DNA of 64,000 nucleotides from Deltaproteobacteria bacterium (GCA_013151635.1 JAADHV010000128.1:1-64000), one strand, 5' to 3'; counted from the stretch's first letter, positions 45,825 to 61,702 are shown. The notes: a model not told the origin generated them from the letters alone. Numbers and translations: made by a program.

Positions 45825-45893
45825 GAGCAGGGATTTGAGCCACGGGCCCTGCGGAGATAGATGAGCCGCATGCTCTGACCAACTCAGCTACTT
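45825..45893 (-). pseudogene. Degenerate tRNA-Met copy
   Basis: On the minus strand this matches the intact tRNA-Met at 48735-48811 over GTTGGTCAGAGCATGCGGCT, and again at CCGCAG and the T-arm end ATCCCTGC. It is not functional: the acceptor arms (GTGAAAA against GCTCCTT) do not pair, one D-stem pair is lost (GCTG), and the anticodon loop has grown to 11 bases. Same orientation as the intact gene. Confidence 0.8.
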
Positions 45894-48734: not shown

Positions 48735-48811
48735 TGGTAGCGACGCAGGGACTTGAACCCCGGACTCTGCGGATATGAGCCGCATGCTCTGACCAACTGA
48801 GCTACGTCGCC
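48735..48811 (-). tRNA. tRNA-Met (anticodon CAT), elongator type
   Basis: A complete cloverleaf on the minus strand: acceptor GGCGACG pairs with CGTCGCT (one G-U), D arm GCTC...GAGC, anticodon stem TGCGG/CCGCA around CTCATAT, T arm CGGGG TTCAAGT CCCTG, and an encoded ACCA end. The start GGCGACGTAGCTCAGTTGG resembles elongator tRNA-Met more than initiator or lysidine tRNA-Ile2. A decayed copy lies at 45825-45893. Confidence 0.93.
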
Positions 48812-51936: not shown

Positions 51937-53823
51937 TCAAGCCCTCCGGCCATTACGCCGGAATGCAGAAATTCCAACCATTAACACAGATATGGCAGCA
52001 GGGGTCATCCCCTCTATCCTGGATGCCTGCCCCAAGGATTTAGGAAGGATCCTGGCTAGCTTTTCTTTTAGTTCATTTGAAAGGCCGTGGACTCTGGAAT
52101 AATTAAAATTTTCCGGGATGTTTATTTTTTCCAGGTCCTGGTATTTTTTTATTTCATTTACCTGGCGCTGGATATACCCTTCGTATTTTATCTCTATTTC
52201 AACCTGCTGCTCGGCCCTTTCCAGAACAGGTTCAGGCGGCGGGCAGATTTCCTTTAAAGATTGATAATCAAGCTGTGCCCTTTTTAAAAGCTGCTCAAGT
52301 TTAACACCGTTGGTTATTTGAGCCGTGCCTTTGGCCTGCAAAAATTCATTAATCTTTTTAGTGGGCTTTACAACAGCTTTTTTAACCCGCTGGATTTCTT
52401 TTCGGGTCTGGTCCTGTATTTCTCTGCATAATCTTAAAGTGTCGTCATCCACAAGCCCAAGCTCATTCCCAATCCGGGATAATCTTAAATCAGCATTGTC
52501 TTCTCTTAACAACAGCCTGTATTCAGCCCTGGAGGTAAACATCCGGTAAGGTTCCTTTGTTCCCCTTGTTACAAGATCATCCACCATAACGCCCATATAA
52601 GCCTGGGAGCGATCAAGCATAAACGGTTCTTTTTCCTGGACAGCCAGGGCAGCGTTAATACCTGCCCACAGGCCCTGTGCTCCTGCTTCTTCATATCCTG
52701 ATGTGCCGTTGACCTGGCCGGCTAAAAAAAGTCCTTTAATCCTTTTTGTTTCAAGGGAGGAGGATAATTCCAGAGGATTTACATAATCATATTCAATTGC
52801 ATAGGCAGGTCTCATGATCTTGGCTGCTTCAAGGCCTTTGACTGACCTGACAACTTTGTACTGGATTTCCAGAGGCAGGCTGTTCCCAAGTCCTGATGCA
52901 TAAATTTCTTTTGAGTTAATGCCTTCATATTCAAGTATGACATGATGGCTGTCCCTGTCCGGAAATTTAACGATTTTATCCTCAAATGAGGGGCAATATC
53001 TTGCAGACCTGCCTTTAATATGGCCGCCATAAAGTGCTGAATATTTAAGGTTCTGCCTGACAATTTCATGGGTTTTTTTATTTGTGCCGCCCATAAAACT
53101 TGGCAGCATGGGATTGGAAATTTGACTTGTTGAAAAAGAGAATGGTTTCGGCCTGTTTTCTGAGTTATGAATATTGAATTTGGAAAAATCAATCGTGTCT
53201 GCATGGAGCCGCGGCGGGGTGCCTGTTTTCATCCTTCCCATGTTAAACCCGAGTGCTGCAAGATTTTTTGCAAGCCTGATTGATGAAAATTCCCCGGCCC
53301 TTCCAGCCTCAAGTTTTGATGCCCCTATGTGGACTATACCTTTAAGAAATGTTCCCGTTGCAATGACGATGGCCTGTGTTGAGTATTCAAAGCCTGTATG
53401 GTCAACAATCCCTTTGACTTTATTTTGTTCAAGTACAAGATCCCGGGCCATTGCCTGTTTTAAATCCAGGTTTTTTGTTTTTTCAATGGCTGCTTTCATG
53501 TTTTTTGAATACAATGCTTTATCGTTTTGTGTTCTGGTTGAATGAACAGCAGGGCCTTTCCTGGTATTTAGTGTTCTGTATTGAATGGCAGAGGAATCAG
53601 TGATCTTTGCCATTTGACCGCCAAGGGCATCAATTTCCTTGACAAGCTGTCCTTTTGCCATGCCGCCTATGGAAGGGCTGCATGGCATGGATGCAATTTT
53701 ATCCATGTCAATGGTCAAAAGCAGGGTATTGCAGCCCATGCGAGCAGAAGCAATGGCTGCTTCACACCCGGCATGGCCCGCACCGATAACAATGACATCA
53801 TATTCTTTATAATTAAAATTCAT
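51937..53823 (-). CDS. mnmG: tRNA uridine-5-carboxymethylaminomethyl modification enzyme MnmG (GidA)
   Basis: FAD-dependent partner of MnmE that modifies the wobble uridine of several tRNAs. The Rossmann FAD motif VIVIGAGHAGCEAAIASARMG follows the start, with SCPSIGG-type block MPCSPSIGGMAKGQLVKEIDALGG, RMKTGTPPRL, the second nucleotide block GLFLAGQVNGTSGYEEAGAQG and TSRAEYRLLLREDNAD. Length 628 is standard. No mnmE in the window. Its promoter has TTGACC and TATATT 17 bases apart, so close to the ATG that the mRNA may be nearly leaderless. A degraded copy of this start region lies at 56494-56572. Confidence 0.97.
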   Translation of the reverse strand: MNFNYKEYDVIVIGAGHAGCEAAIASARMGCNTLLLTIDMDKIASMPCSPSIGGMAKGQLVKEIDALGGQMAKITDSSAIQYRTLNTRKGPAVHSTRTQNDKALYSKNMKAAIEKTKNLDLKQAMARDLVLEQNKVKGIVDHTGFEYSTQAIVIATGTFLKGIVHIGASKLEAGRAGEFSSIRLAKNLAALGFNMGRMKTGTPPRLHADTIDFSKFNIHNSENRPKPFSFSTSQISNPMLPSFMGGTNKKTHEIVRQNLKYSALYGGHIKGRSARYCPSFEDKIVKFPDRDSHHVILEYEGINSKEIYASGLGNSLPLEIQYKVVRSVKGLEAAKIMRPAYAIEYDYVNPLELSSSLETKRIKGLFLAGQVNGTSGYEEAGAQGLWAGINAALAVQEKEPFMLDRSQAYMGVMVDDLVTRGTKEPYRMFTSRAEYRLLLREDNADLRLSRIGNELGLVDDDTLRLCREIQDQTRKEIQRVKKAVVKPTKKINEFLQAKGTAQITNGVKLEQLLKRAQLDYQSLKEICPPPEPVLERAEQQVEIEIKYEGYIQRQVNEIKKYQDLEKINIPENFNYSRVHGLSNELKEKLARILPKSLGQASRIEGMTPAAISVLMVGISAFRRNGRRA

Positions 53824-53879
53824 AACCTGTTAATATATAATTGCTTGAGGGTTTGGTCAATAAGGTGATTTGAAAAATC
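53803..53879. repeat. Direct repeat, copy A: mnmG start and promoter region
   Basis: About 77 bases holding the first mnmG codons and its promoter. They recur at 56494-56572 in the same orientation with only a handful of changes and two one-base or two-base gaps. The two copies flank the PEP-synthase-like gene. Confidence 0.85.
53832..53860 (-). promoter_or_regulatory. mnmG sigma-70 promoter
   Basis: On the minus strand TTGACC (53855-53860) and TATATT (53832-53837) are separated by exactly 17 bases. Eight bases then lead to the ATG, so transcription would begin at or just before the start codon. Confidence 0.65.
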
Positions 53880-56436
53880 ATGCCAAGGGAAGATCTATTG
53901 ACCTGTAAAATTCTGTGACATAGGATTCCACAGTGGTTTCGTTTTCTATGGACAAATCAAGCAACCGGGTTATGGCAAGCATTTTTCCAACAATATAAAG
54001 ACAGTTGTTGATGGTATCTGCCTCTTCCGCCTTAATCCTGGCCTTTAAGAAATCTTGATTGACGTGGGTCTTAAATCCTGCCTGTTTTAAAATTTTTGAC
54101 ACCAGAAGGATCCTCAGGCTTCGTTTGCGAATATCTGCGGCACCGCCTTTAAAGGAAATGGTGATATGGTTGAGGTAAGGGTCGTCCGACACATATGAAT
54201 CCACTGCAACATAATGGTACCCCATGCTCAGGCTCAGATTCATATAACTTGGCGTGACCACGGCAAAACTCCTGGTGTCATAACCAATATTCTCAAAGGA
54301 CGGAGTGCGTATCATGGCCGTAAAGATACCGCCTGCTTGTGCCATCTGGTCCGGGCCCTGCCATGATACGCCAGGGGCATTCATACCGCTCCACAGAGCT
54401 TGAAACGGTTTGCAGACAATTGAATCGGCCCCGATCCGTTTCTGGTCAGGGGTGGTCACGGCGTTTTCAAACAAGTTCAGCAGAAAAAGACTTAACGGGA
54501 GCTTTGTTTTTATCTTATAAATATTTTTTATTTTTCCAAGCTGGGCCTTGTCCTTTAAGGAGAACATTTCGTTTAAAGCAGTTTCATGACAAAACCGGAT
54601 AATATCGTGCCAGGTACGGCATGATTCTTCTTTAAAACTGACTGCCCTTGGATCTGTGAGGTTCAGAGGAAATATAAGATCTGCAATCTTTCTTAACATG
54701 CAGTAAGACTCGGTCCGTTCGATATTGACCACAATGGGCTGCATTGTGACCTTATGAGTTAAAATTTCGTGGATAATCCCTTCGTAGATGACCCCTCTGG
54801 TGGCATCCACCGTTATTTCCCGGCCGTTTTCAAGAATGGAAAATATATTGGGAACCCTTACAACACAGGGTACCTTAAATTCCCGGACCACAGAGGACAT
54901 ATGGTCGGTTAGATTGCCTTTTTCCACAACAACAGCGCTTGCTTTTTGAAAGGCACCGATATATTGGGGAGAGGAATTTTTAATGACAAGAACGCCTCCT
55001 TTCGGGAAATCAAAAAGATCGTGGATATCACCGGCTTTGAAGACCTTTCCGGCTCCTGCTCCGGCTGCAACCGGCCTGGCCCTGTCTGAAATTATGGGGG
55101 CCCTGGTTTCTGATGCCGGAGGTTCCTGCTTTGTATTGAGATGCAGGGGTCTGGACTGCAGGATGATGAGCTGGTCTTTTTCATCAAAACACCACTCTAT
55201 ATCCTGGGCGCATTTAAAATGTGCCTCAATTGTAAGTGCTGCTTTTCCCAATTGACACAGTTGCTCTTTTGTCAGGCAGGGTCTGGTAATCAATTCCTCA
55301 GGGATCCTGATCTGCTTCAATCCGCCCTGCTCCTTAAGTTTGAGGGCAATTTTTTTAGGGACAATTTCCTTTCTGGACAGGGCAAAATCCGGCGTGCGCA
55401 TCAGAATATAGGTGTCAGCCGAGACAGCGCCCTCCACCAGAAGCTGGCCAAGCCCCCAGATCGCAGAGATAACAATCTCCTGCTTATCAGGCCGGACCGG
55501 GTCAGTGGTATAAAGGACTCCAGAACATTTGGCATCCACCATTTCCAAAAATCCCACGCTCATGTTGACATCTTCTGAACGAATGTTTTTTACCCTTTGA
55601 TACAGGATGCTGCGTGTATTATATTTGCTGGCCACGACTGCCTTGTATTTTTCCAGAAGCTGTCTTGCGGGAACATTTAAAATGCTGGAAAACTGCCCGG
55701 CAAAGGAGTGTTCCAGGTCTTCTCCAATGGCACTGCTGCGCACTGCCCATAAAATGCGCCGATTGTGGTTTTTTTCAAGTTTTCTGCTTTTTTTAGTGAT
55801 AACCTCTTCGATTTCGGGTGGCATTTTGACATCTGCAATCAATTGTTTGATTTTTTTTTCAGCCGCCAGAAGCTCATGGCTTTTGTTAACGTCTGTCTTG
55901 TGTAAAATATTCGCAATTTTTTCAGACAGAGTGTTATACTCGGAAAAATGGGTATAGGCACAGGCGGTCAAGCCAAAACCATCCGGAATCTGCAGATTGC
56001 ATTTATTCTTAAGTTCTCCCAGGTTTGCCATTTTACTGCCGACTTTATCAATATATCTGGCAGTGATTTTGTCCATGGGAATTATGATAGGGGTGTAAAT
56101 CGGATCCTTACTGCCGGAAGTGAACTCCCTGACCTCTTTTTCCATGTCTTCAAATGCGTGGAGCAGGTGATTATATCTGCCCCCGGATAGTGCAGAAAGG
56201 TCAAAGATAATATTTTTAACTGTTCGGGCCAGGTTTTTTATCATACTTTTAAGATAAGGCATGCTGATCAATTGCTGGTTATAATATTTATTTTCCAGTT
56301 CAGTCATCAGATCCAGGGCATGTTCATTTTCTGTCAGCAGGCCCAAAAAAGCTTTATACCTTAGTTGAAGGCTGCTCCGGGGCTTGCTTGGATTTTTACT
56401 GATTTTTTTCTTAAATTTTTTCCAGAATCGGATCAT
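53878..56436 (-). CDS. Atypical PEP/pyruvate-binding protein (PEP synthase-like N-terminal and swivelling domains)
   Basis: An 852-residue protein. After ~120 helical residues comes a PPDK_N/PEP-synthase ATP-grasp domain (GSKMANLGELKN, WAVRSSAIGEDLEHSFAGQFSSILNV, EMVDAKCSGVLYTTDP, AIWGLGQLLVEGAVSADTY, CAQDIEWCFDE, LIILQSRPL). A phosphohistidine swivel domain follows with the histidine kept in an unusual setting, GNLTDHMSSVVREFKVPCVV. The C-terminal ~290 residues lack the PEP-binding TIM barrel and match nothing I know. It could phosphorylate a different acceptor, as rifampicin phosphotransferase does, but that is speculation. Flanked by direct repeats; the right-hand copy supplies its promoter. 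Confidence 0.82.
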   Translation of the reverse strand: MIRFWKKFKKKISKNPSKPRSSLQLRYKAFLGLLTENEHALDLMTELENKYYNQQLISMPYLKSMIKNLARTVKNIIFDLSALSGGRYNHLLHAFEDMEKEVREFTSGSKDPIYTPIIIPMDKITARYIDKVGSKMANLGELKNKCNLQIPDGFGLTACAYTHFSEYNTLSEKIANILHKTDVNKSHELLAAEKKIKQLIADVKMPPEIEEVITKKSRKLEKNHNRRILWAVRSSAIGEDLEHSFAGQFSSILNVPARQLLEKYKAVVASKYNTRSILYQRVKNIRSEDVNMSVGFLEMVDAKCSGVLYTTDPVRPDKQEIVISAIWGLGQLLVEGAVSADTYILMRTPDFALSRKEIVPKKIALKLKEQGGLKQIRIPEELITRPCLTKEQLCQLGKAALTIEAHFKCAQDIEWCFDEKDQLIILQSRPLHLNTKQEPPASETRAPIISDRARPVAAGAGAGKVFKAGDIHDLFDFPKGGVLVIKNSSPQYIGAFQKASAVVVEKGNLTDHMSSVVREFKVPCVVRVPNIFSILENGREITVDATRGVIYEGIIHEILTHKVTMQPIVVNIERTESYCMLRKIADLIFPLNLTDPRAVSFKEESCRTWHDIIRFCHETALNEMFSLKDKAQLGKIKNIYKIKTKLPLSLFLLNLFENAVTTPDQKRIGADSIVCKPFQALWSGMNAPGVSWQGPDQMAQAGGIFTAMIRTPSFENIGYDTRSFAVVTPSYMNLSLSMGYHYVAVDSYVSDDPYLNHITISFKGGAADIRKRSLRILLVSKILKQAGFKTHVNQDFLKARIKAEEADTINNCLYIVGKMLAITRLLDLSIENETTVESYVTEFYRSIDLPLA

Positions 56437-56493: not shown

Positions 56494-56572
56494 TTCCTTT
56501 TATAATTAAAATTTATAACCTGTTAATATATAACTGCTTGAGGTTTTGGTCAATAAGGTTGATTGAAAAATC
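56494..56572. repeat. Direct repeat, copy B: degraded mnmG start region
   Basis: Second copy of 53803-53879. The mnmG ATG has become ATA (GTTATAAATTTT), so no mnmG start remains, but the promoter hexamers are unchanged. It lies upstream of the PEP-synthase-like gene. Confidence 0.85.
56525..56553 (-). promoter_or_regulatory. Duplicated mnmG-type promoter driving the PEP-synthase-like gene
   Basis: TTGACC (56548-56553) and TATATT (56525-56530) on the minus strand with 17-base spacing, identical to the hexamers and spacing of the mnmG promoter. It would give a leader of about 80 bases before the ATG at 56436. Confidence 0.6.
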
Positions 56573-57819: not shown

Positions 57820-58740
57820 ATGGATAAAAAGAAAAGGTATTCGGATTATAATTCTTATCTTAGAGGATTATTTAGCCAAAGAGTGCAGAAAATTGCTGTT
57901 GATGCAGGGCTGTCATGCCCTAACAGGGATGGCAGGCTTTCCTTTAAAGGGTGCATTTACTGCAACAAAAAAGGCTCCGGGTCTGGTAAGTTTGCAAAGG
58001 GGATTTCCATAAAAGAGCAGATCAAGACCGGTAAAATCGGCATGGTGAAAAAATATAAAGCTAAAAAGTTCATGGCTTATTTTCAATCTTATTCAAATAC
58101 TTATGCAAGCCCGGAACATATGAAACAAATATATGATGAGGCACTTTCCTGTGACGGCATGGTAGGAATGGCAATTGGAACACGGCCTGACTGCATTGAT
58201 GAAGAAAAACTTGATTTGATAGAATCCTACACAAAAAAATACCTTGTCTGGCTTGAGTATGGGCTCCAGTCTTCCCATGATTCCACCCTGGATTTAATCA
58301 ACAGGGGGCACTCATATGAAGATTTTTCCAATGCTGTGCAATTAACCCTTGGCAGGGGGATAAATATATGTGCCCATGTTATTTTAGGACTTCCGGGCGA
58401 AGATAAGAAAATGATGCTTGAAACTGCAAGAAGATTGGCTGACAGTGAAATTAACGGGATAAAAATTCATCTTCTTTATGTTATCAAAGGAACGATTCTC
58501 GACAGGATGTGGAAAGGGCGTGAATACACACCCATGGAACAAAAGGAATACGTGGGTACTGTGTGTGACTTTCTGGAATTATTGCCTGGAAAGATTATCA
58601 TACAGCGCATAACAGGTGATCCACACCCAGATGAATTAAGAGCCCCCATGTGGGCCGGCCGGTACAGGGAAACCTTTAATATGATCCAGCAGACCCTTGA
58701 GACAAGGAACTCTTTCCAGGGGATAAGATATAAAAAATAA
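57820..58740 (+). CDS. yhcC: TIGR01212-family radical SAM protein (YhcC-like)
   Basis: A radical SAM enzyme of 306 residues. The cluster motif is CPNRDGRLSFKGCIYCN (CxnCxxC spacing typical of the YhcC group), with AYFQSYSNTYA, GTRPDCIDEEKL and WLEYGLQSSHDSTLDLINRGH characteristic of the elongator-protein-3-like radical SAM subgroup, then HVILGLPGEDKKMMLETAR. Reaction unknown; neighbours in other genomes link it loosely to redox or tRNA functions. Its last ~90 bases are repeated at 60575-60660 in front of apbE, showing that yhcC and apbE once met tail to tail here. Confidence 0.92.
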   Translation: MDKKKRYSDYNSYLRGLFSQRVQKIAVDAGLSCPNRDGRLSFKGCIYCNKKGSGSGKFAKGISIKEQIKTGKIGMVKKYKAKKFMAYFQSYSNTYASPEHMKQIYDEALSCDGMVGMAIGTRPDCIDEEKLDLIESYTKKYLVWLEYGLQSSHDSTLDLINRGHSYEDFSNAVQLTLGRGINICAHVILGLPGEDKKMMLETARRLADSEINGIKIHLLYVIKGTILDRMWKGREYTPMEQKEYVGTVCDFLELLPGKIIIQRITGDPHPDELRAPMWAGRYRETFNMIQQTLETRNSFQGIRYKK

Positions 58741-58762
58741 AAACTATTTTACCGCCAGATCA
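58651..58762. repeat. Direct repeat, copy A: yhcC 3' end plus apbE-like tail remnant
   Basis: These 112 bases match 60575-60686 without a gap and with about 11 differences, all transitions. The copy contains the intact end of yhcC; the part after its stop codon reads NNFDLAVK on the minus strand, a relic of the apbE C-terminus (NFGDLVVK). Confidence 0.9.
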
Positions 58763-58838
58763 AAGTTGTTTAAAGTATGATCTATCGGGTATCAATCTTT
58801 TCTTTCCATGAGGAAATGGCCTCATAATCTGCTCCGAA

Positions 58839-59567
58839 TCATGAATTTCGTGTGATTGTTTTCCTGCTCACACCGGCAAGACCCAGCAGGCCAAATCCGA
58901 GAAGGAACATGGTTGCAGGTTCCGGAACCGGTTGATCGGAGGAAAAGCCGCGGGCATTGTCATATTTGATCAGCCGTCCAAGTGCTATATAGCCATTGTC
59001 GTTGCTGTTATCAGCATCATCGTAATTGGTATCTATATACTGTACGTTATCCAACCACGCCTGAAGATTGGTGTTGGACCCGTAGCCGGAAACGTCGAAT
59101 CGAAGAGTATGCCAGCCTGCCTGTGCAAAGGGTGATGTTGAAAATGTATAAGAACCAATTGTCGGGTTGCTGCCAAGATATGTATCCAGTATCGTTATTC
59201 CGGTTCCACTGAACTGGGCCAGGTAGCCTGTGTCCCAGAAATGCTGTACCCCACTTAAGTTTTCACTGCTTCTCAGCCTAAGGTGGGCATAGGAAGAATC
59301 GGTATTGGTAAGATCAAAATACGCATCTACCGTGATCGACTGGTACAGGCTGGCCTGATTGCTGCCGTCCTTCCATAGGACAGAATATGGTGTGCCCGAG
59401 GCCTTGAGTTCTCCACCGGAAATAGACCAGGTGCCAGCTTTTGCTGTCCAGCCATCAAGAACGTTGTCATTAAAATTATCCGAAAACGCATACGTGCTGG
59501 CGACGGCCATAACTGGCACCATGAACAGAAAAAATAAACAAAAAACAAGAACAGACAATCGTTTCAT
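58839..59567 (-). CDS. PEP-CTERM sorting-domain protein (gene 3), LamG/concanavalin-like body
   Basis: A secreted 242-residue protein. GGGAGG lies five bases before ATG 59567; the track start at 59585 is too early. A signal peptide (LSVLVFCLFFLFMVPVMAVAS) is followed by a beta-sandwich resembling LamG/GH16-like lectin folds (FSDNFNDNVLDGWTAKAGTWSISGGELKAS). The C-terminus has VPEPATMFLLGFGLLGLAG and SRKTITRNS. Probably an exported matrix or glycan-associated protein. It lies inside the segment flanked by 112-base repeats and has its own sigma-54-type promoter. Confidence 0.9.
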   Translation of the reverse strand: MKRLSVLVFCLFFLFMVPVMAVASTYAFSDNFNDNVLDGWTAKAGTWSISGGELKASGTPYSVLWKDGSNQASLYQSITVDAYFDLTNTDSSYAHLRLRSSENLSGVQHFWDTGYLAQFSGTGITILDTYLGSNPTIGSYTFSTSPFAQAGWHTLRFDVSGYGSNTNLQAWLDNVQYIDTNYDDADNSNDNGYIALGRLIKYDNARGFSSDQPVPEPATMFLLGFGLLGLAGVSRKTITRNS

Positions 59568-59642
59568 CAGAACCTCCCGATTCAATTATTATACATGACG
59601 TTTTTTAGATTACGTCAGGGCTATTATTTTATTTTGTGGGTC

Positions 59643-59658
59643 TGCATAACCTGTGCCA
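59643..59658 (-). promoter_or_regulatory. Putative sigma-54 promoter of PEP-CTERM gene 3
   Basis: Minus strand TGGCACAGGTTATGCA: perfect TGGCAC at -24, GG-N10-GC spacing and a slightly off -12 (ATGCA for TTGCA). The GC is about 77 bases before ATG 59567, matching the spacing at the other two PEP-CTERM genes. Confidence 0.7.
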
Positions 59659-59718
59659 TTTTTAATTGGCCACTGTATATGGCAGTTTATAGGTGTTTTT
59701 ACAAGGCTATTGTATTGG

Positions 59719-59786
59719 TGAAAAAAATTGTGAAAAAAAGGTAATATATTGTGAAAAAAAGGTAATAAAATATGAAAAAAAGGTAA
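59719..59786. repeat. 21-bp-spaced direct repeats with phased A-tracts
   Basis: TGAAAAAAAGGTAA occurs three times, with GGTAA at 59740, 59761 and 59782, exactly 21 bases (two helical turns) apart. A partial fourth unit (TGAAAAAAA) starts at 59719. It lies 60-140 bases upstream of the PEP-CTERM gene 3 promoter. Phased A7 tracts should bend DNA. Confidence 0.8.
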
Positions 59787-59888
59787 TGGCAAGGACAGAG
59801 ATATCGTGACGGTGGATCCTCGGGCCTGTGGTAGATAATTTACCCTGCCGTTGCATAAAAAAAAGCAAGGAATTAGTAAAGAAAAAGC

Positions 59889-59916
59889 TTGACATGATCA
59901 AATCATAGCTTATATT
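59889..59916 (+). promoter_or_regulatory. Promoter of the ArsR-like gene
   Basis: TTGACA (59889-59894) and TATATT (59911-59916) with a 16-base spacer, a strong sigma-70 pair. The -10 runs directly into the operator-like sequence that follows. Confidence 0.65.
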
Positions 59917-59939
59917 TAAGTCATTGCTTAATCACTTAA
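59916..59939 (+). promoter_or_regulatory. Operator-like site 1 of the ArsR-like regulator
   Basis: A 24-base site beginning TTAAGTCATTGCTTAAT and ending ACTTAA, with TTAAGT/ACTTAA as inverted ends. It agrees at 20 of 24 positions with the site at 60287-60310, and both abut the end of a -10 hexamer. Placement fits repression of the regulator's own gene. Confidence 0.6.
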
Positions 59940-59958
59940 TTGCAATATTGTTGACCGA

Positions 59959-60261
59959 ATGAATATAGAACCTTCTGAAATATTTAAAGTATTGAGCGTT
60001 AAAATATTGAAACAAGCAGGTCTTGTCAGAAGCGAGAAGAAAGGATACTGGATACCATATTCGATAGATGAAAAAGCAATGGAAAATTGCCGGCAAATAT
60101 TAAATGAAGTTTGCACGTGCGGATGCCAGGGATCAGGAAAATATCGGGAAGTTGAATTAGAAAGGTCGGATTTGGAATCGCTGAAAAAATATCAGAAAGA
60201 GCTTAAAAACGAACTTAATACAGTACGGCAGAGAGTAAGAGAGCTGGAGTCTGCAAGATAG
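59959..60261 (+). CDS. ArsR-family regulator with internal deletion of the helix-turn-helix
   Basis: A 100-residue protein. The start (MNIEPSEIFKVLS) and the later block (KILKQAGLVRSEKKGYWIPYSI, the end of the recognition helix and the wing) match ArsR-type repressors. About 35-40 residues that normally lie between them, carrying helices 2 to 4 and most of the DNA-reading helix, are missing without a frameshift. The C-terminal part has a thiol cluster CTCGCQG and a charged coiled coil (LESLKKYQKELKNELNTVRQRVREL). It may be a dead repressor, or a metal- or redox-binding protein that no longer binds DNA alone. Matching operator-like sites precede it and the next gene. Confidence 0.72.
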   Translation: MNIEPSEIFKVLSVKILKQAGLVRSEKKGYWIPYSIDEKAMENCRQILNEVCTCGCQGSGKYREVELERSDLESLKKYQKELKNELNTVRQRVRELESAR

Positions 60262-60281
60262 CAGGCAATTTTTTTTGTGCA

Positions 60282-60310
60282 TATAATTAAGTGACTGCTT
60301 AATTGCTTAA
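60282..60310 (+). promoter_or_regulatory. -10 element and operator-like site 2 before the Cys-rich microprotein
   Basis: TATAAT (60282-60287) runs straight into TTAAGTGACTGCTTAATTGC..., which matches operator-like site 1 at 20 of 24 positions in the same position relative to the -10. No good -35 is visible, so an activator or weak promoter is possible. Confidence 0.55.
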
Positions 60311-60330
60311 GCAGAAAGGAGGTGATTAAA

Positions 60331-60432
60331 ATGGCAGAAAAAAAGAAAGGATGTGGCTGTGGATGCATTCCTGTGAAGCAAACCAGTGAGAAACCAGCCA
60401 AAGACAAAAAGAAAACCAAGAAATCCAAGTAG
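60331..60432 (+). CDS. 33-aa Cys-rich microprotein (not in ORF track)
   Basis: ATG 60331 follows a near-perfect ribosome site, AAAGGAGGTGATTAAA. The product starts MAEKKKGCGCGCIPVK and ends in a lysine-rich tail (KDKKKTKKSK). Three cysteines in CGCGC spacing can bind metal in a metallothionein-like way; this is inferred from composition only. It is the second gene of the ArsR-like pair and shares its operator. A GC-rich hairpin follows. Confidence 0.68.
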   Translation: MAEKKKGCGCGCIPVKQTSEKPAKDKKKTKKSK

Positions 60433-60453
60433 GTAGGGCATTGTATGTCATCG

Positions 60454-60505
60454 CCAGAGGGGATGGGAGTGCAAAGGAAAGTTCCTGTCCCCTCTGGTCT
60501 TTCCT
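60454..60505 (+). terminator. Hairpin terminator after the Cys-rich microprotein
   Basis: CCAGAGGGGA (60454-60463) pairs perfectly with TCCCCTCTGG (60488-60497) around a loop that can itself pair (GGAA/TTCC). The pyrimidine run after it (TCTTTCCT) is only a weak T-tract. Confidence 0.6.
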
Positions 60506-60574
60506 AAAGCTATCTAAAAAGTCACACGAAGCGTTGAAAAAAATGATAGAAAGAGTGACTGGTATAGAAGCCTG

Positions 60575-60686
60575 TGAGCCGGTCGATACGGGGAAATCTT
60601 TAATATGATCCAGCAGACCCTTGAGACAAGGAATTCTTTCCAGGGGATAAAATGTAAAAAATAAAAATTATTTCACCACCAGATCA
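60575..60686. repeat. Direct repeat, copy B: yhcC tail remnant plus apbE 3' end
   Basis: Second copy of 58651-58762. Here the apbE end is intact and the yhcC end is the relic (CGGGGAAATCTTTAATATG...). The two copies together show that both genes kept one intact 3' end each. Confidence 0.9.
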
Positions 60687-61702
60687 CCAAAATTTTTTGA
60701 AGCATGGTTTAAAAGTTTCTGGCCTTTTTTCTGTATGATCAGGCATTCCGTATCTTCAAGGCTGTTAACAAGCCGGATACCTTTTTTTAAATCCATGACC
60801 ATCAGGGCTGTAGCAAGACCATCCGCAAAAGTACAGTTTTGAGAGATTACAGATGCGCTGACAATCCCGTTATCCACCGGGAAACCTGTTTTGGGATCAA
60901 TGATGTGAGAAAATGTTTTACCCTTTATCTCAAAGAAATTCCTGTAATTCCCACTGGTGGCAATGGCTTTGTTATCCAGACGGATAATTTTATATAAACC
61001 CTGGTTTATATATATTTTGTCAGGCTTGCTGATTCCAACACTCCAGTATTTTCCTTTTCTGTTTTTACCGGAAGCATAGAGTTCTCCCCCTATTTCCACA
61101 AGAACATCATTAATGCCCGAAGATGTGAAAAGTTTAGCAACGGCATCAACCCCATATCCTTTGGCAATGGAGCCAAAATCCAGGGTTATGGGCTTTGTTT
61201 TTTGAACAGCATTAGTTCCTTTGATGGCTATGTGGTTGAATCCGACCTTTGATAATGCCACGGCTATTTTACCTGGGTCAGGTATTTTATTTGTACTGTT
61301 TTCTGTTCCGAATCCCCATAGGTCAACCAGGGGCTTAACCGAGGCATCCCATGCTCCATTGGTCATCCTGTATAATTTTTTGCCGGTCAGTATGACAGCA
61401 TAAAACTCAGGGGAGATTGTCACAAGCTTCCCTGTTGCTTTTTTGTTGAATAATGAAATTTCGCTTTTGGCATCAAACATGGAAAGCTTTCTGTTTACTT
61501 CTTTAAGGAGGGTATCAACCTTTTCTTCCCATAAGGAAAGGGATTCGCTTTTGTGCGAGATAAATTTAATGGTATAAAAAGTTCCCATGGTCTTGCCTGA
61601 TATTGCGTACTGCCTTCCGGTGGTTTGAAAGGCAAACCCTGAAGATTGGAAAATGAAAAAAGAGATAATAAGATATAAACTTGTTATTTTGAAAAATTTC
61701 AT
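60668..61702 (-). CDS. apbE: FAD:protein FMN transferase
   Basis: Attaches FMN covalently to a Thr of target flavoproteins such as Rnf and Nqr subunits. A signal peptide (SLYLIISFFIFQSSGFA) exports it to the periplasm, where it acts. Family blocks: GKTMGTFYTIKF, LSMFDAKSEISLFNK, WDASVKPLVDLWGFG, LDFGSIAKGYGVDAVAKLF, DVLVEIGGELYASG, and the magnesium/FAD region HIIDPKTGFPVDNGIVSASVIS with TFADGLATALMVM. Length 344 is normal. No rnf or nqr genes are adjacent. It was originally convergent with yhcC (see the repeats). Confidence 0.95.
   Translation of the reverse strand: MKFFKITSLYLIISFFIFQSSGFAFQTTGRQYAISGKTMGTFYTIKFISHKSESLSLWEEKVDTLLKEVNRKLSMFDAKSEISLFNKKATGKLVTISPEFYAVILTGKKLYRMTNGAWDASVKPLVDLWGFGTENSTNKIPDPGKIAVALSKVGFNHIAIKGTNAVQKTKPITLDFGSIAKGYGVDAVAKLFTSSGINDVLVEIGGELYASGKNRKGKYWSVGISKPDKIYINQGLYKIIRLDNKAIATSGNYRNFFEIKGKTFSHIIDPKTGFPVDNGIVSASVISQNCTFADGLATALMVMDLKKGIRLVNSLEDTECLIIQKKGQKLLNHASKNFGDLVVK

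Follow-up and report, generated by a model that had tools for sequence, protein, structure and literature searches.

How can new genes enter between two neighbouring genes and leave both of them whole? The question is raised by a 64,000-nucleotide stretch of DNA (the window) from Deltaproteobacteria bacterium (GCA_013151635.1, JAADHV010000128.1:1-64000), in which an accessory segment of about 1.8 kb separates yhcC from apbE and is flanked by two copies of the convergent junction of these genes. We consider it likely that foreign DNA was joined at the yhcC/apbE junction, that the target was duplicated in the same event, and that the resulting relics then decayed. The window comes from a draft genome of 4.2 Mb in 136 contigs, where it belongs to contig C20. 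Positions are counted from the first letter of the window, and G, C and L numbers are our own labels for genomes, contigs and loci.

The duplicated yhcC/apbE junction

Pairwise alignment of positions 58651-58762 and 60575-60686 gave an ungapped match of 112 bp with 11 mismatches, transitions without exception. This much had been reported in a preliminary description of the window; the alignment confirmed it and extended the repeat to 114 bp at 90% identity (58649-58762 and 60573-60686). A gapped alignment within the contig covered 134 columns (E about 1e-25). Copy A (58649-58762) consists of the intact 3′ end of yhcC and a relic of the apbE 3′ end, and copy B (60573-60686) is the reverse, as was also described at first. 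In copy B, the yhcC relic occupies 60575-60664 and carries a stop codon at 60575-60577 (TGG to TGA). In copy A, the pseudogene of the apbE 3′ end lies on the minus strand from 58741 to about 58786 and reads DHTLNNFDLAVK, with indels past 58762. Neither a whole-genome search nor a scan that covered 0.70 Mb yielded the repeat at any third site. Together with the searches of relatives, this rules out a dispersed repeat family.

Both flanking genes are intact. The first, on the plus strand at 57820-58740, is a radical SAM gene of the yhcC/YtqA type (tRNA modification, MnmL/YtqA; NCBIfam TIGR01212, E=1.4e-103), with congener orthologues that are 72-84% identical. The second, apbE, encodes an FAD:protein FMN transferase on the minus strand at 60668-61702 (PF02424, E=2.6e-87). 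The proposal that the two genes formerly met tail to tail was borne out by synteny: in nine congeners yhcC and apbE are convergent, with a single junction and no insert. The stop codons lie about 10 nt apart in five of these genomes (G018, G006, G003, G010 and G005) and up to 90 nt apart in the other four (G007, G008, G016 and G020). Elsewhere, apbE is absent from this place (G001 and G017) or found 18 kb off (G004).

The segment had also been said to enter with duplication of the junction and without breaking either gene. This part stands, but the duplicated tract appears to have been considerably longer than 112 bp. A second apbE relic, on the minus strand at 58787-58819, matches codons 54-65 of the gene. 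It agrees with 61510-61542 at 29 of 33 bases, collinearly and in the same orientation (BLAST E=2e-5), while the runner-up in the scanned 0.70 Mb reaches 23 of 33. About 0.8 kb of apbE is absent between the two relic pieces. This arrangement suggests that copy A formerly held apbE up to codon 54 or beyond and that roughly 0.8 kb was later deleted. Since the second relic is collinear with the organism's own apbE, the duplicated tract would originally have measured at least about 970 bp. A candidate second yhcC relic upstream of copy B (KKMIERVTG, resembling KIIIQRITG) was rejected, as its DNA score of 26 fell below the shuffle mean of 29. We ascribe no function to the junction repeat, other than a low potential for a deletion that would restore the empty site.

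Several comparisons bear on the lineage in which the duplication took place. In the yhcC part, copies A and B are 90.5% identical to each other, versus 85.7% for the best relative. The apbE relic pieces score 50 and 41 against the organism's own apbE, versus at most 36 and 29 against those of congeners. The redundant halves bear the damage: the yhcC relic has the stop and amino-acid changes, three of which can be polarised (R to G, T to I and Y to C), and the apbE relic has the deletion. At three synonymous sites it is the intact copy A that departs from the nearest relative, G018. As far as sequence comparison can show, the junction was duplicated in the organism's own lineage, the cargo came to lie between the copies, and the redundant halves decayed.

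Similar scars in the same genome

The yhcC/apbE locus is not the only one of its kind. When only repeats present as a single pair were counted, the scan yielded about five repeat-flanked inserts, this locus included, with each repeat at two places only. At the other loci the repeats are 61-125 bp long, as compared with at least 114 bp and probably about 970 bp between yhcC and apbE. No common ends or sequence were found among the inserts. The scanned part held no cargo-free tandem duplication of similar size.

The nearest case lies upstream, at mnmG. Here a 74-bp sequence covering the 5′ end of the intact mnmG and its upstream region (53806-53879) recurs at 92% identity as a relic of the mnmG 5′ junction (56499-56572). 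Between the copies lies a minus-strand gene for a PPDK_N/PEP-utiliser protein of 852 amino acids (53878-56436), which is missing between mnmG and yhcC in G001, G004, G016, G018 and G020. On the same contig, outside the window, a repeat of the tdh 5′ junction (C20:102806-102930 and 105158-105274, L178/L179; 88% over the best 99 columns) encloses a BglII-type restriction-modification system (PF09195, E=1e-44); in G007, the radical SAM gene and tdh are adjacent, with no such insert. On contig C10 (6177-7137, L216), the cargo is a PIN-domain VapC-like gene, with an intact ligase gene on one side and, on the other, a 69-bp relic of the ligase 3′ end (90% identical) that stands ahead of a decarboxylase gene. 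The ligase and decarboxylase genes adjoin without it in G002 and G007.

The remaining case is the weakest, because tRNA genes also serve as integrase sites. An intact tRNA-Met(CAT) gene, predicted by ARAGORN on the minus strand (48735-48811), and a decayed copy of it (45827-45891; 83% identical to 48745-48805 over 61 bp) bracket a 2.8-kb segment with a sigma-factor cluster and a CBM48-type protein. G001 and G004 have a single tRNA-Met at the matching place, without an insert. The pair could be an old integrase attachment (att) site instead of a duplication-type insertion.

Two further repeat pairs were rejected as scars. The repeats on contig C31 (82060/85276) proved to be flagellin paralogues, and those on C40 (31799/34897) were left out as weak (76%) and lying beside tyrosine-recombinase fragments. 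Several of the direct repeats in G007 are members of a dispersed family, about 95 bp long (TTTTTATGAAAGTCTTAAAAAATCCAAACAGCGACTTT...) and present in about 20 copies per 400 kb (L227-L246, G007:C1 1-400000); thus, raw repeat counts are no gauge of insertion by duplication. A single-pair repeat at a gene end in the same genome (G007:C1, 68165/76777) resembles another insertion scar.

Proposed joining of foreign DNA

The yhcC/apbE locus belongs to a pattern that has been described before, from Helicobacter pylori and mostly for restriction-modification genes: insertion with long target duplication (Nobusato et al. 2000, Gene 259:99) (PMC1643837, PMC3031569, PMC3154945). In both settings, accessory genes lie between long direct repeats derived from the target, the target is single in relatives, the repeat length varies between loci, and no transposase is present. 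Restriction-modification systems are the classical, though not an obligatory, cargo (PMC1643837, PMC3031569), and one of the five scars found here, that at tdh, carries such a system. The present insert differs in its cargo, a PEP-CTERM gene and an arsR-microprotein pair, with no restriction-modification gene detected by Pfam. It also differs from the Helicobacter cases in its host, a sulfate reducer, and in the duplication, which was about 1 kb long and is now strongly decayed.

The history that we propose would start from an ancestor in which yhcC and apbE were convergent neighbours. Incoming DNA that carried, at a minimum, the PEP-CTERM gene, the arsR-microprotein unit or both would have been joined at the junction region. 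The joining would have duplicated about 970 bp or more, from yhcC codon 277 across the junction to apbE codon 54, giving the order yhcC - apbE′ - cargo - yhcC′ - apbE. Both genes would be whole because their ends were duplicated, not cut. The redundant apbE′ and yhcC′ then decayed to the 112-bp tracts and the 33-bp fragment that are seen today. Since cargo is coupled with duplication at several loci, we infer that duplication and insertion were a single event at each of them. As for the joining itself, we prefer an explanation in which a staggered or over-replicated break captured foreign DNA and was filled in, the joining being illegitimate at one or both ends, over a RecA-type integration of a circle. 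In the literature, we found no paper that settles the mechanism of insertion with long target duplication.

The main rival is homology-facilitated illegitimate recombination during DNA uptake, in which a linear donor pairs at one end with the homologous flank, its other end joins illegitimately beyond that flank, and the stretch between is duplicated. As one of the ways in which an insertion can duplicate its target, it overlaps with the explanation that we prefer. Such recombination is documented in transformable bacteria and in Escherichia coli conjugation (PMC3240628), and it has been invoked for type VI secretion system effector modules of Vibrio, where, as here, a new module stands beside a kept relic of the displaced core sequence (PMC5361080). 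A relic of one gene on each side of the cargo fits it as well. In those systems, however, the donor has a homologous anchor, whereas none is known for our locus and both flanking genes are intact. A donor with the cargo beside yhcC′ or apbE is needed, and none was present in 86 genomes of the family. On balance, we regard this route as unlikely, though it fares best among the alternatives.

Integration of a circle by a single homologous crossover (Campbell-type) was one of the origins put forward in the preliminary description. A circle carrying the cargo and the yhcC/apbE junction would, given homology over 970 bp or more, yield exactly the observed topology. But the circle must already have carried the junction beside the cargo, and the same would be demanded at five unrelated junctions, so that the question is merely shifted to the donor. 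Nor does the genome hold another copy of the junction, and neither the PEP-CTERM nor the ArsR protein has a match in 72,556 plasmids, although a collection of this kind gives no proof of absence. The crossover is a possible but not favoured origin, and an improbable one in our estimate; it accounts better for spread among strains than for the origin of the insert.

We give equally little credence to a history in two steps, a plain tandem duplication and a later, unrelated insertion of cargo at its joint. The relic of an IS1380-family end within the insert does show that mobile DNA reached the segment, but just one end of the element survives, well within the insert. Furthermore, all five duplications revealed by the scan of 0.70 Mb hold cargo, and each of the inserts would have had to strike the joint. 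The lack of cargo-free tandem duplications speaks against a duplication that came first.

Finally, an island borne by a transposon or an integrase, for which the repeats would be att or target sites, is very improbable: the IS1380-family end inside the insert speaks for it, but there is no integrase or transposase open reading frame, the repeats consist of gene-junction sequence, 114 bp long or more, that differs from locus to locus, and the inserts share no termini. IS1380 elements make target duplications of only a few bp. One-ended transposition of the IS1380-family ISEcp1 type resembles our case in that a solo left end abuts the arsR promoter, but differs in that the insert has neither a transposase nor a second end. 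Such transposition cannot account for a duplication that is hundreds of bp long.

Returning to the joining of foreign DNA with duplication of its target, a number of points weigh against it. Of the 4.2 Mb, 0.70 Mb was scanned, four of the five cases are on one contig, and the genome is a draft in many pieces. The tRNA-Met case may simply be what remains of an integrase att site. The insert is composite, with an insertion-sequence end and two modules, so several events may have built it. The two junction copies, sisters as they appear, are still compatible with a donor strain within about 10% divergence, and a crossover with a near-conspecific is possible.

Entry of genes into bacterial chromosomes without a transposase or integrase is poorly understood. 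What makes this locus interesting is that scars of its kind recur within one genome and that the changes in its decayed halves can be polarised. It offers clean empty sites in congeners and sister cases with differing cargo (restriction-modification, a VapC-like toxin, a PEP-utilising enzyme and a secreted protein). Comparison of breakpoints across scars could discriminate between the mechanisms behind long target duplications. We suggest, quite tentatively and with more doubt than confidence, that insertion with long target duplication often serves Desulfobacula as a way of gaining genes without a transposase, and that it extends beyond selfish restriction-modification and toxin modules. If so, about five datable scars would let the joining mechanism be read from their breakpoints. 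The repeat-flanked insert is also a simple signature for spotting recent gene gains.

Contents of the insert

The preliminary description listed a PEP-CTERM gene, an ArsR-like gene and a Cys-rich microprotein gene between the repeats. All three are present, but it overlooked the IS1380-family end and the loss of the DNA-binding core from ArsR. Its statement that there is no integrase or transposase holds for open reading frames: judged by these and by Pfam, 58763-60572 contains no tyrosine or serine integrase and no transposase. It does not hold for the short transposon end. Judging from these features, the insert appears to be composite and partly dead.

The gene next to copy A, on the minus strand at 58839-59585, encodes a PEP-CTERM secreted protein (PF07589, E=1e-7) with a weak 3-keto-disaccharide-hydrolase-like (LamG-like) domain. 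The body of this protein has no homologue in plasmids or in the 390 genomes that were searched within the order, where it is an orphan.

The IS1380-family left end (plus strand, about 59841-59891, 51 bp) is solo, its element body lost, and is 81-89% identical to the ends of other elements, some of which retain an intact transposase. Neither the IS1380 transposase nor the second terminal inverted repeat was found in the insert. In related genomes, 51-55 bp of this type of end open elements, one of them with a 483-amino-acid transposase (PF13701, E=5e-44). In the insert, the end directly abuts the arsR promoter, with the break at a CTTGA common to the arsR −35 box. More left ends of this type occur in the genome, at L069 (G000:C53, about 2339) and L068 (G000:C45, about 76295-76347), the latter being short and solo, without an adjoining transposase.

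The ArsR-family gene (plus strand, 59959-60261) has lost 36 codons in frame, which correspond to the core of the helix-turn-helix. Intact homologues from G001, G030 and G021 align on both sides of the gap, and PF01022 matches the intact homologue, not the ArsR of the insert. As read from its sequence, the shortened protein probably cannot bind its operator. The cargo is probably functional only in part.

An operator-like sequence, TTAAGTCATTGCTTAATCACTTAATT, precedes arsR at 59916-59941 and was found by a repeat search; a similar copy precedes the microprotein gene at 60285-60310. In G001 and G030, too, the same elements precede each of the two genes. A candidate binding sequence for the ArsR of the insert is TTAAGTNATTGCTTAANNACTTAA.

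The microprotein gene (plus strand, 60331-60432) encodes 33 amino acids rich in Cys and Lys, MAEKKKGCGCGCIPVKQTSEKPAKDKKKTKKSK. The arsR-microprotein unit ends in a terminator-like hairpin, read from the sequence on the plus strand (60454-60497), and similar hairpins close it in G001 and G021. No long direct repeats were found around the unit in relatives; thus, the idea that it travels alone by the duplication route is unsupported. At unrelated sites in G001, G013, G021 and G030, the microprotein gene trails arsR. ArsR and the Cys-rich, Lys-rich microprotein with its CGCGC motif (59959-60432 in the window; L061, L062, L063 and L064) thus form a stand-alone two-gene unit in four genomes, and the microprotein may possibly represent a metal-responsive family that has not yet been described.

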